A DNA stretch of 25,880 nucleotides from a virus. Position 1 is the first letter of the stretch. Every line of letters starts with the position of its first letter. Position numbers and translations under genes: made by a program. Of this stretch, positions 6,193-7,881 are shown one piece after another. The stretch is from IMG/VR virus record IMGVR_UViG_3300007363_000090, positions 1 to 25,880 of that record; one strand, given 5' to 3'. The notes beneath the pieces are model-generated. The model worked only from the letters and a program-made list of their open reading frames with translations, did no database searches and was not told the origin of the DNA.

Positions 6193-6630
6193 ATGGGTGA
6201 GTTGGTGGCTAAGTGTCAGTCGTGTGGGTCGACTGAGTATCTGTATGAGGTTCAGCCTGTTGGGTGGCTTCCTCAGTTCATGTGTGAGGACTGTCGCCAT
6301 AACGAGGGTGTGGATGTGTTGGCGTTGTTGGATGATGCGACGGGTCGTGTGTGGGAGTCGTGGCATACGGGTGGCAACTGTTACGCGTTGAGTGTTCAGA
6401 GTGTTGATAGGGCTGGTGACTATGTGATGGTGACTGGTGAGGATGTGTTGTCGCGTTTTGGTGATCTGTGTGATTTCGGGAGTGCTGTGAAGGTTGGGTA
6501 TTACCCTGATGAGGATTCGTGTGAGGCGCAGTTTTTGGTGGTTCGTGAGTTTGGTCGTCGTGTGACTGTTGGTGATGTGGTGCAGGTGGTCGCTGACGCG
6601 TTTGATGAGTGGGGGATCAAGCGTTCCTGA
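6193..6630 (+). CDS. zinc-ribbon-containing protein, function unknown
   Basis: 145 residues from the ATG at 6193, preceded by AAGGAG with 7-nt spacing; the longer frame from 6145 is rejected for lack of such a site. C8/C11 and C31/C34 (CQSC, then CEDC) form an N-terminal zinc ribbon. The rest is acidic, beta-rich and unrecognised (DYVMVTGEDVLSRFGDLCDF, VVREFGRRVTVGDVVQVV). First gene of the rightward operon after the gene-free region. Codons are dominated by G and T, the reverse of the operon ending at 5434. A structured RNA element starts 2 nt after its stop. Confidence 0.65.
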   Translation: MGELVAKCQSCGSTEYLYEVQPVGWLPQFMCEDCRHNEGVDVLALLDDATGRVWESWHTGGNCYALSVQSVDRAGDYVMVTGEDVLSRFGDLCDFGSAVKVGYYPDEDSCEAQFLVVREFGRRVTVGDVVQVVADAFDEWGIKRS

Positions 6631-6632
6631 GT

Positions 6633-6720
6633 GTTGGTGGCTTCGTCCTAGTGGACTTGTCAGGGTGCGATTCCTTGACGAAGCGCGAGGCTTTCGCTCT
6701 GCCTTCAAATGGGCGAGATG
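6633..6720 (+). ncRNA. tRNA-minihelix-like RNA element, copy 1
   Basis: Conserved lead GTTGGTG (6633-6639). P1 5' strand GCTTCGT (6640-6646). Joining segment CCTAGTGGACTTGT (6647-6660). P2 CAGGG (6661-6665), loop TGCGATT (6666-6672), CCTTG (6673-6677). P1 3' strand ACGAAGC (6678-6684). After GC comes P3 GAGGC/GCCTT (6687-6691, 6701-6705), then CGAGATGGGAAA up to the next start codon. P1 is 7 bp and P2 is 5 bp with a 7-nt loop; no base separates the P2 and P1 3' strands, as in a tRNA acceptor/T-arm. The loop resembles a T-loop (UNCRANY). Copy 2 supports every stem by mostly compensatory change. It sits between two genes of one operon, so cis-regulation or RNase P processing is plausible. Confidence 0.75.
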
Positions 6721-6724
6721 GGAA

Positions 6725-6871
6725 ATGATGATGGAAGCAGAGTCAACAAAAATCGAATTTGTGGAGTGTTCGTGTCCTATTGAGGATTGGGTACATGGGT
6801 GGGATGATGATTCGTTGTTGGGTGACTACTACTACTGTGGTCATTGTGGTGAACTGACTCAGGTTGGTTGA
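6725..6871 (+). CDS. 48-residue acidic zinc-ribbon-like protein
   Basis: The start is one of three consecutive ATG codons (6725, 6728, 6731). Two CxC/CxxC pairs are visible, C15/C17 and C38/C41 (ECSCP, then YCGHCGE), spaced like a small zinc-binding domain, with an acidic Trp-rich middle (WVHGWDDDS). Not recognised. The gene is framed by two copies of the same RNA element, one ending just before its start and the other beginning 2 nt after its stop, as if the RNA-plus-gene unit were a duplicating cassette. Confidence 0.55.
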   Translation: MMMEAESTKIEFVECSCPIEDWVHGWDDDSLLGDYYYCGHCGELTQVG

Positions 6872-6873
6872 TT

Positions 6874-6968
6874 GTTGGTGACCTGTCCCTAGTGGGCTTG
6901 TGCGAGTGCGATCCTCGCAACAGGTGCTAGGTGAGTCGTCGCGACCTACAACAGCGACGAGATGGGAA
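6874..6968 (+). ncRNA. tRNA-minihelix-like RNA element, copy 2
   Basis: Same order as copy 1: lead GTTGGTG (6874-6880), P1 ACCTGTC/AACAGGT (6881-6887, 6919-6925; six pairs plus one C-A mismatch), joining CCTAGTGGGCTTGT (6888-6901), P2 GCGAG/CTCGC (6902-6906, 6914-6918) with loop TGCGATC (6907-6913), then GC and P3 TAGGT/ACCTA (6928-6932, 6944-6948), then CGAGATGGGAAA. The joining segment differs from copy 1 at one base and the T-loop-like loop at one base. P1 differs at most positions but stays paired. The next gene starts at 6976. Confidence 0.75.
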
Positions 6969-6975
6969 AGGGAAC

Positions 6976-7344
6976 ATGGCTAGGGAAGTGATGGAAAGTG
7001 GTCGGGCGGTGATTCGGTGTAGGTATCTTGGCCCGACTGACCGGCGATCCAGCCGGGTGAAAGTGAATCGATTTGATCCTCCGTCGCTTGGGCGCGATCC
7101 GAATACGATCATTGTTGCTTGGGATTACGCGCTCAATCCCATTGAGAATTTTCGGGTTGCTGTCGCAAAGTATGTTGAGCGCGCAGGGTGGACGGGTTCA
7201 TGGTTGGTTTCGTCTGTTCCTGATGGTGCGGTCGCTGTGTGTGTCCCTGACACCCATGTGGTTTCGCTGTCTGATAAGTGCGAGGCATACCAGATCATTG
7301 ATGAATGTGAGATGCTTTACCTGTTGACTGGTTCGGTGAAGTGA
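6976..7344 (+). CDS. hypothetical phage protein behind RNA element 2
   Basis: 122 residues from the ATG at 6976, following GGGAAAGGGAAC. Not recognised. The protein is mixed alpha/beta; its first third is basic (RYLGPTDRRSSRVKVNRF), and later parts include ENFRVAVAKYVERAGW and a cysteine-containing end (CEAYQIIDECEMLYLL). It overlaps the next gene by one base (TGATG), so the two are coupled. Codon choice is less G/T-biased than the two genes before it. Confidence 0.55.
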   Translation: MAREVMESGRAVIRCRYLGPTDRRSSRVKVNRFDPPSLGRDPNTIIVAWDYALNPIENFRVAVAKYVERAGWTGSWLVSSVPDGAVAVCVPDTHVVSLSDKCEAYQIIDECEMLYLLTGSVK

Positions 7345-7517: not shown

Positions 7518-7801
7518 TGCGTAGCCGTTTTCGGCGGGTTCCTTTTGTGGGGCGGGTCATCCGATATGGTTGGCCCGCCCCACCACTATTACCGCCACCC
7601 GTCCGGTACATAGTGAAACATCCGCGACTAGCGACCTATTGGCGCGACCCTTACGGGCGGTATTCTCGCGCTGGTGACCCACGATCGGATTGGTCTGCGG
7701 ATCGTCGGCGCGCTTATCGATTCGCAACCGAAACGCAAGCCCGCGCGACTCTTGATAGTTGCCGGGTGGAAGGCGTAATAGTTGTTGATCAGTCAGGGTA
7801 G
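7517..7801 (+). CDS. basic hypothetical protein, last gene of plus operon
   Basis: 94 residues, coupled to the gene before by TGATG. Very Arg-rich start (MRSRFRRVPFVGRVIRYGW), then a Pro segment, and a C-terminal YRFATETQARATLDSCRVEG motif of the kind found in many small actinophage proteins. No assigned function. The stop is followed 35 nt later by a strong hairpin terminator, which ends the rightward operon. Confidence 0.6.
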   Translation: MRSRFRRVPFVGRVIRYGWPAPPLLPPPVRYIVKHPRLATYWRDPYGRYSRAGDPRSDWSADRRRAYRFATETQARATLDSCRVEGVIVVDQSG

Positions 7802-7835
7802 CAACGCTGCCAACTGACATATGACTGCTGGAATC

Positions 7836-7863
7836 AGGCCCGCCCTACCTATGGGGCGGGCCT
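7836..7863. terminator. bidirectional hairpin terminator between convergent operons
   Basis: AGGCCCGCCC (7836-7845) and GGGCGGGCCT (7854-7863) form a perfect 10-bp GC-rich stem with an 8-nt loop. It is followed on the plus strand by ATTTCG, a weak T-tract. It lies exactly where the plus operon (ends 7801) meets the minus operon (ends 7870), so it probably stops both. Confidence 0.8.
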
Positions 7864-7881
7864 ATTTCGTCATGACGAAAT
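7864..7881. promoter_or_regulatory. 18-bp perfect palindrome over the whiB stop codon
   Basis: ATTTCGTCATGACGAAAT is identical to its own reverse complement. It abuts the terminator hairpin and contains the whiB stop (7870-7872). Its half-site ATTTCGTC also occurs in both 21-bp repeats of the replication gene. A dimeric protein-binding site is the simplest reading, but the location at the end of a gene is unusual for an operator. Confidence 0.5.

Follow-up and report, generated by a model that had tools for sequence, protein, structure and literature searches.

A repeated tRNA-like RNA without an anticodon arm in the stop-to-start gaps of phage operons

The locus and its two element copies

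The DNA analyzed here in full (hereinafter, the window) is a 25,880-base IMG/VR virus record from an actinobacterial-type phage that encodes a terminase, a replication initiator, WhiB, a RecE-like exonuclease, an annealing protein and a methyltransferase; one large protein has its closest named relatives in Streptomyces phages, with approximately 28% identity. The element under study is found twice within a plus-strand operon, in which a 145-amino acid ORF (6193-6630) that is not itself preceded by a copy is followed by a small, Cys-rich ORF of 48 amino acids without a family match (6725-6871), led by copy 1, and by a phrog_3199-like ORF of 122 amino acids and unknown function (6976-7344), led by copy 2. 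Downstream, two strong, terminator-like inverted repeats (7547-7583 and 7831-7868) lie at the end of the operon, before the convergent WhiB gene.

The exact ends of the copies are 6633-6725 and 6874-6969. The first-pass annotation of this DNA had located both correctly but had ended copy 1 at 6720, about 5 nt too early. Four sequence blocks are indeed common to the two copies, as it had reported, namely GTTGGTG, CCTAGTGGRCTTGT, TGCGATY and CGAGATGGGAAA. The core pattern CCTAGTGGRCTTGT-N5-TGCGAT has exactly two matches in the window, with none expected from shuffled sequences, and no third site appears in the window when up to three mismatches are allowed.

All features of the two copies are on the plus strand. 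Copy 1 opens with the conserved leader GTTGGTG (6633-6639), just 3' of the stop codon TGA at 6628-6630, and continues with the 5' strand of an acceptor-like stem, P1 (GCTTCG, 6640-6645, paired with 6679-6684), a D-arm-like hairpin (TCC-TAGT-GGA, 6646-6655) and a T-arm (CAGGG-TGCGATT-CCTTG, 6661-6677), which is identified by stem covariation and loop comparison. Then follow the 3' strand of P1, (A)CGAAGC (6678-6684), a discriminator-like tail of the form R-C-N-A (GCGA, 6685-6688), an H-type pseudoknot (6687-6718) and a purine-rich ribosome-binding stretch, GAGATGGGAAA (6715-6725), that runs into the possible start codons ATG at 6725, 6728 and 6731. Copy 2 repeats this order: leader GTTGGTG (6874-6880), just 3' of the stop codon TGA at 6869-6871; P1 5' strand ACCTGT (6881-6886, paired with 6920-6925); D-arm-like hairpin CCC-TAGT-GGG (6887-6896); T-arm GCGAG-TGCGATC-CTCGC (6902-6918); P1 3' strand ACAGGT with tail GCTA (6920-6929); H-type pseudoknot (6928-6960); and purine-rich stretch GATGGGAAA (6961-6969), before the ATG at 6976. 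In each copy, P1 starts 9 nt 3' of the stop codon of the preceding ORF.

The pseudoknot consists of stem P3 (6687-6691/6701-6705 in copy 1; 6928-6932/6944-6948 in copy 2) interleaved with a fourth stem, P4, which reads TTTCGC/GCGAGA in copy 1 (6692-6697/6713-6718) and TCGTCGC/GCGACGA in copy 2 (6936-6942/6954-6960). The first-pass annotation had inferred an RNA from three stems, P1, P2 and P3, that change between the copies in a mostly compensatory manner. These stems pair as it stated, with a single C-A mismatch in P1 of copy 2, and the compensatory pattern extends to all four stems: across both copies, 46 of 47 positions are paired, whereas 200,000 shuffles of the stem letters averaged 18.8 and never exceeded 33. 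Only the last base it assigned to P1 is better placed elsewhere, in the D-arm-like hairpin (TCC/GGA in copy 1, CCC/GGG in copy 2); in copy 1, T6646 could alternatively form a seventh P1 pair with A6678. What had been missed is the tRNA likeness, with P2 and its loop forming a T-arm and P1 an acceptor-like stem, the involvement of P3 in a pseudoknot, and the intercistronic leader position of both copies. Thermodynamic folding is only mildly better than that of shuffled sequences (z of -1.5 and -1.8 for the two copies), so the evidence for an RNA is comparative.

A family of covarying intercistronic RNAs

Direct searches did not uncover relatives of the element. The blastn search of the region against a phage collection returned chance matches only; one of these, in Rhodococcus phage AngryOrchard, is a simple hairpin. 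Exact-block patterns found no relatives among viral contigs, since neither the stems nor even the T-loop are constant. Using the terminase rather than the RNA as bait, we collected 80 IMG/VR loci and scanned them with a descriptor of the fold, which requires in turn the P1 stem, a linker containing GG, a 5-bp stem, a T-like loop and the return strand of P1. The same element was detected in several of these loci, in many cases with the canonical tRNA T-loop TTCGATT. A covariance model built from six copies (R1) matched 9 of the 81 sources, at 28 sites that all have the same strand orientation with respect to the terminase. A second model (R2) recovered copies in records that had been fetched through a downstream protein, not through the RNA (for example, with an E-value of 9e-16 in G051). 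The 122-amino acid downstream protein alone, used as the query, led to no relatives, whereas an alignment of this protein led to seven loci.

The resulting non-redundant set includes 50 copies from 16 sources; besides the window phage, a dozen or more metagenomic relatives are carriers. Additional viral contigs came from a pattern scan, among them a 301-kb contig whose copies possess an extra arm; these more distant contigs match more weakly, and some might represent a different tRNA-like design. The T-arm and tail pattern in genome contigs hit mostly ordinary tRNA genes, which score below 33 bits with R2. The relatives in the main family are all metagenomic contigs without expression data, copies from the same phage or from closely related ones cannot be counted as independent, the E-values come from a shortened calibration, and the extent of the family beyond the terminase relatives has only been sampled.

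Across 48 distinct sequences, P1 is 98.9% paired and all six of its pairs change on both sides; the T-stem is 100% paired, with four of five pairs changing on both sides. Overall, 13 of 14 pairs show changes on both sides. Double-change cells number 182; shuffling leaves 50, and sliding the structure no more than 54. The covariation score is 0.705, against 0.164 in shuffles and at most 0.132 in slid structures. Although the alignment was fitted to the covariance model, 21 of the 22 copies that were not used in model building keep six of six P1 pairs. Altogether, the 50 copies contain 30 distinct P1 helices and 29 distinct T-stems. The first-pass annotation would have been refuted by a lack of further homologs with covariation; these homologs exist, and the inference of a selected RNA fold is upheld.

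Members of the family share an acceptor-like stem of 6 bp, a D-arm-like hairpin, a T-arm and the tail R-C-[T/G]-A, and have no anticodon arm; downstream of the tail come a hairpin or pseudoknot, then a purine-rich stretch, then the ATG. The columns of the D-arm-like hairpin after P1 are 80-98% paired, with stems such as ACCC/GGGT and CGCG/CGCG outside the window. The T-loop is TTCGATT/C/A in 35 of the 50 copies; TGCGATY is the window variant, and GTCRTA takes the place of the T-loop in six copies, of which the set of 50 includes two. Both of these variants keep the C56- and R57-like bases. The tail begins with a purine and C in every copy (50/50 each), followed by a third base that is T in 37, G in 12 and A in one, and by A at the fourth position in 43 of 50; 5' of P1, position -2 is T in 38 of the 50 copies and position -1 is G in 37. 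The lack of pairing between base -1 and the discriminator (0 of 39 copies) was set aside given that base composition predicts only one or two such pairs. In 44 of the 50 copies, a hairpin of at least 6 bp begins no more than 10 nt after the tail, as opposed to 9% in shuffles, and in the window copies and in loci L015 and L041 this hairpin is an H-type pseudoknot with the same interleaved order. Thus, the element is a covarying tRNA-like RNA that lacks an anticodon arm.

The position of the element in operons is equally regular. For 49 of the 50 copies, P1 is preceded by a stop codon at a distance of 2-24 nt (median 8), and the tail is followed by an ATG after 15-93 nt; 5.4% of random positions satisfy a comparable criterion. 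None of the 50 was found in a promoter-proximal position. Up to seven copies per phage (seven in the phage of L027/L198) precede unrelated genes, all on one strand. The genes that are led by a copy include beta-clamp-like and dksA/traR zinc-finger genes, and most have no known family. In six phages, one gene family, that of the 122-amino acid ORF led by copy 2, retains its copy (protein identity 48-91%), with the relatives in L041, L067, L103/L199, L104/L200 and L202 also following a copy; in distant relatives of this gene from Roseobacter and Caulobacter phages, no copy was found. Other junctions in the same gene clusters are often 4-nt overlaps without the element, although the gene calls are crude. 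With so many junctions lacking it, the element marks chosen ones. The element thus fills stop-to-start gaps in phage operons, repeatedly and in one orientation.

Relationship to known RNAs and repeats

The first-pass annotation had recognized no known class, and comparison with Rfam agrees: no Rfam 15 family reaches the gathering threshold in the window or over any copy in L196-L202, no tmRNA was identified by Rfam in the same sequences, and the best score of a tRNA-class model over a copy is 24.2 bits (tRNA-Sec, cutoff 47). ARAGORN predicted no tRNA or tmRNA at the copies scanned, and a literature search, which did not cover preprints and most subscription journals, yielded no description of the element. 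This is a previously uncatalogued RNA family that is absent from Rfam 15.

The closest structural parallel is tRNA itself (RF00005, RF01852), with which the element shares the acceptor-like stem, the D-arm-like hairpin, the 5-bp T-arm with a 7-nt TTCGATY loop and a purine discriminator followed by C. In contrast to tRNA, the acceptor is 6 bp long, CTA or CGA stands in place of CCA (the third tail base is C in 0 of 50 copies, so that a 3' RCCA end is missing), the element sits in mRNA leaders, and there is no cloverleaf with an anticodon arm, the stretch between P1 and the T-arm being 14 nt in the window, with one short hairpin. In mitochondria, working tRNAs punctuate one long transcript between protein genes. 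The phage elements are likewise tRNA-shaped and located between protein genes on one long transcript, but they are anticodon-less mimics for which cleavage has not been shown.

Several phage and operon RNAs that are not tRNAs are known to be cut by RNase P, including phage M3 RNA, the P1/P7 C4 antisense RNA, T4 gene 32 mRNA and E. coli polycistronic mRNAs (PMC11143913), and so are the tRNA-like pseudoknots of plant viruses such as TYMV (PMC11143913, PMC12710915). The former, the sequences of which were not compared with the element, are single sites and not a repeated family before many genes. The TYMV-type structures similarly combine viral tRNA mimicry with a pseudoknot; unlike the phage element, they are placed at the 3' end of an RNA genome, have a CCA end and form the acceptor through the pseudoknot (PMC12710915).

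Repeats immediately upstream of start codons have been described in actinobacteriophages, namely SAS/ESAS in Cluster K mycobacteriophages (PMC3203893) and the repeats of Microbacterium phage clusters EC, EF, EG and EI (PMC7302621). Like the element, these are repeated, proximal to start codons and in one orientation within actinobacteriophage operons, but they are defined by primary sequence, and for ESAS the authors found little support for RNA pairing (PMC3203893). Identity with the present element was rejected: R2 found no copy in TM4, Quhwah, Hyperion, MementoMori or AnnaSerena (best E-value 0.05), and the 13-bp GGGATAGGAGCCC located at the ribosome-binding site in Cluster K was not seen in the element leaders inspected.

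Possible roles of the element

We favor, at slightly less than even odds (a probability of about 0.48), the hypothesis that the element is a tRNA-mimic punctuation mark cut by host RNase P on the 5' side of P1. Recognition, cleavage and the effect on expression are all inferred, and the choice is guided by the precedents, the spacing and an anatomy that nearly satisfies the needs of bacterial RNase P (a stacked acceptor/T-arm helix, a T-loop, and a purine and C on the 3' side of the helix). The more general proposition, that actinobacterial phages use dedicated anticodon-less tRNA mimics together with host RNase P to split one transcript into individually capped messages, is slightly more tentative. 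Under the proposed mechanism, host RNase P would recognize the stacked acceptor/T-arm helix and the R-C of the tail, and would cut at the 5' end of P1, that is, after approximately 6639 and 6880 in the window, splitting the polycistronic transcript a few nucleotides 3' of each stop codon. Given the distance from stop codon to P1, the upstream message would be left intact. Each downstream message would begin with a stable tRNA-like cap, followed by the hairpin or pseudoknot and the ribosome-binding site; this arrangement would protect the 5' end, uncouple downstream from upstream translation and allow separate mRNA levels to be set. It is possible that RNase Z, for instance, makes a second cut on the 3' side of the discriminator, and the absence of CCA would allow this, but no data support it. 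Because the downstream genes are unrelated, a general role in expression fits better than the control of one pathway.

P1 and the T-stem contribute 6 + 5 pairs separated by 0-1 nt, which approaches, but does not quite reach, the stacked helix of tRNA (approximately 12 bp). In pre-tRNA, the bases that correspond to the R, C and A of the tail meet the RNase P RNA in the RCCA interaction (PMC11143913). The purine discriminator and the C74-like base are each present in 50 of 50 copies, whereas C75 is absent, so that the full RCCA contact cannot be made. Against the RNase P hypothesis, too, is the acceptor-like stem of six rather than seven pairs, and there are no transcript or cleavage data. Many pre-tRNAs favor U at position -1; this base occurs in none of the 50 copies, where G is dominant.

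Anatomy and position alone cannot separate cleavage from a role in translation without any cut, and this is the main rival, which we consider unlikely without dismissing it. The fold would stay in the mRNA and aid initiation or restart at the next gene; it might, for instance, retain the 30S subunit once translation has terminated a few nucleotides upstream, or dock into a tRNA site in the manner of an IRES. Such a role fits the short distances to the stop codon on one side and the start codon on the other, as well as the purine-rich ribosome-binding stretch after the last stem, and tRNA mimicry is employed by viral IRESs, although we know of no bacterial tRNA-like IRES. However, most junctions in the same operons, often 4-nt overlaps, do without the element, and the R-C-N-A tail has no obvious function in this setting. 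The conserved unpaired blocks of a structured RNA directly before a start codon could also belong to a regulatory leader through which a phage or host factor (a protein, a tRNA-binding enzyme or a small molecule) switches the downstream gene. We regard this as quite unlikely, with up to seven copies per phage preceding unrelated genes and 49 of 50 copies following the stop codon of another operon gene rather than a promoter. Moreover, the acceptor-stem sequence differs between copies within one phage, which makes recognition by a single aminoacyl-tRNA synthetase unlikely.

If both ends were cut, the product would be a free mini-tRNA of approximately 50 nt that could serve as a decoy for tRNA-targeting host enzymes or defense systems. 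Such an excised small RNA would make sense of the compact tRNA-like fold and the discriminator-like base, and several copies would raise the dose, but the link to start codons and the gene family that retains its copy across phages point to a role in cis, and most tRNA-cleaving toxins target the anticodon arm, which the element lacks; we consider a decoy improbable. A DNA-level element, that is, a recombination or protein-binding repeat with incidental inverted repeats, receives hardly any credence from us. A role at the DNA level has been proposed for ESAS of Cluster K mycobacteriophages (PMC3203893), and the element is indeed repeated, intergenic and in one orientation; its stems, however, diverge widely yet stay complementary, G-U pairs included, whereas a DNA site would keep sequence and not pairing, so that covariation largely contradicts this explanation. 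The same negligible weight is given to decayed tRNA genes caught between protein genes. Some phages do carry tRNAs in such places, and the T-arm and acceptor-like stem would be natural remnants, but a uniform layout in many phages without an anticodon arm, compensatory stems, a fixed place before the ATG and negative ARAGORN and Rfam tRNA results at the copies scanned speak against decay, which is largely contradicted by a fold kept across 50 copies.

The new RNA family covaries clearly, occupies a fixed place in phage operons and likely represents a way of using tRNA mimicry that is new for DNA phages. Cleavage by RNase P at these sites, if it occurs, would explain the separate expression of tightly packed phage genes and would provide short natural tags with which to split transcripts; the two window elements, of approximately 90 nt, permit a direct test. 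Our findings suggest that other start-associated repeats of actinobacteriophages, the role of which has been open since 2011, are worth re-examining as RNA.

Several further tRNA-like or otherwise structured sequences came to light. In Microbacterium phage Quhwah (L205, gaps 1288, 3047, 7815, 33858 and 41557), the repeat TAGACTATAGGTGTAAGCC, published as a motif without a role (PMC7302621), is located upstream of start codons and looks like a separate structured leader RNA. Microbacterium phage Hyperion contains an unannotated tRNA-like sequence upstream of gene 57 (L206:30847-31004, minus strand; T-arm GGAGG-TTCGACC-CCTCC). The cultured Mycobacterium phage Trixie has a larger tRNA-like leader (L204:722-830, record 52383 region; GGGTAG...CGGGG-TTCGATT-CCCTG-CTACCC-ACTT) that ends approximately 37 nt before the start of gp94, is not called as a tRNA and is matched by R2 in the T-arm only. 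In the 301-kb contig (IMGVR_UViG_3300036770_007539; L196 and L197; 262-301 kb), ORFs are preceded by several tRNA-like elements that carry an extra hairpin, in one case capped by GAAA, and that are mixed with true tRNA-Lys and tRNA-Leu genes; a group I intron (L197:15138-15343) abuts a tRNA-like end. Finally, L138, L140 and L152, on different contigs, contain near-identical tRNA-like leaders with an extra hairpin before different genes, those for a zinc-ribbon protein and a DNA cytosine methyltransferase.
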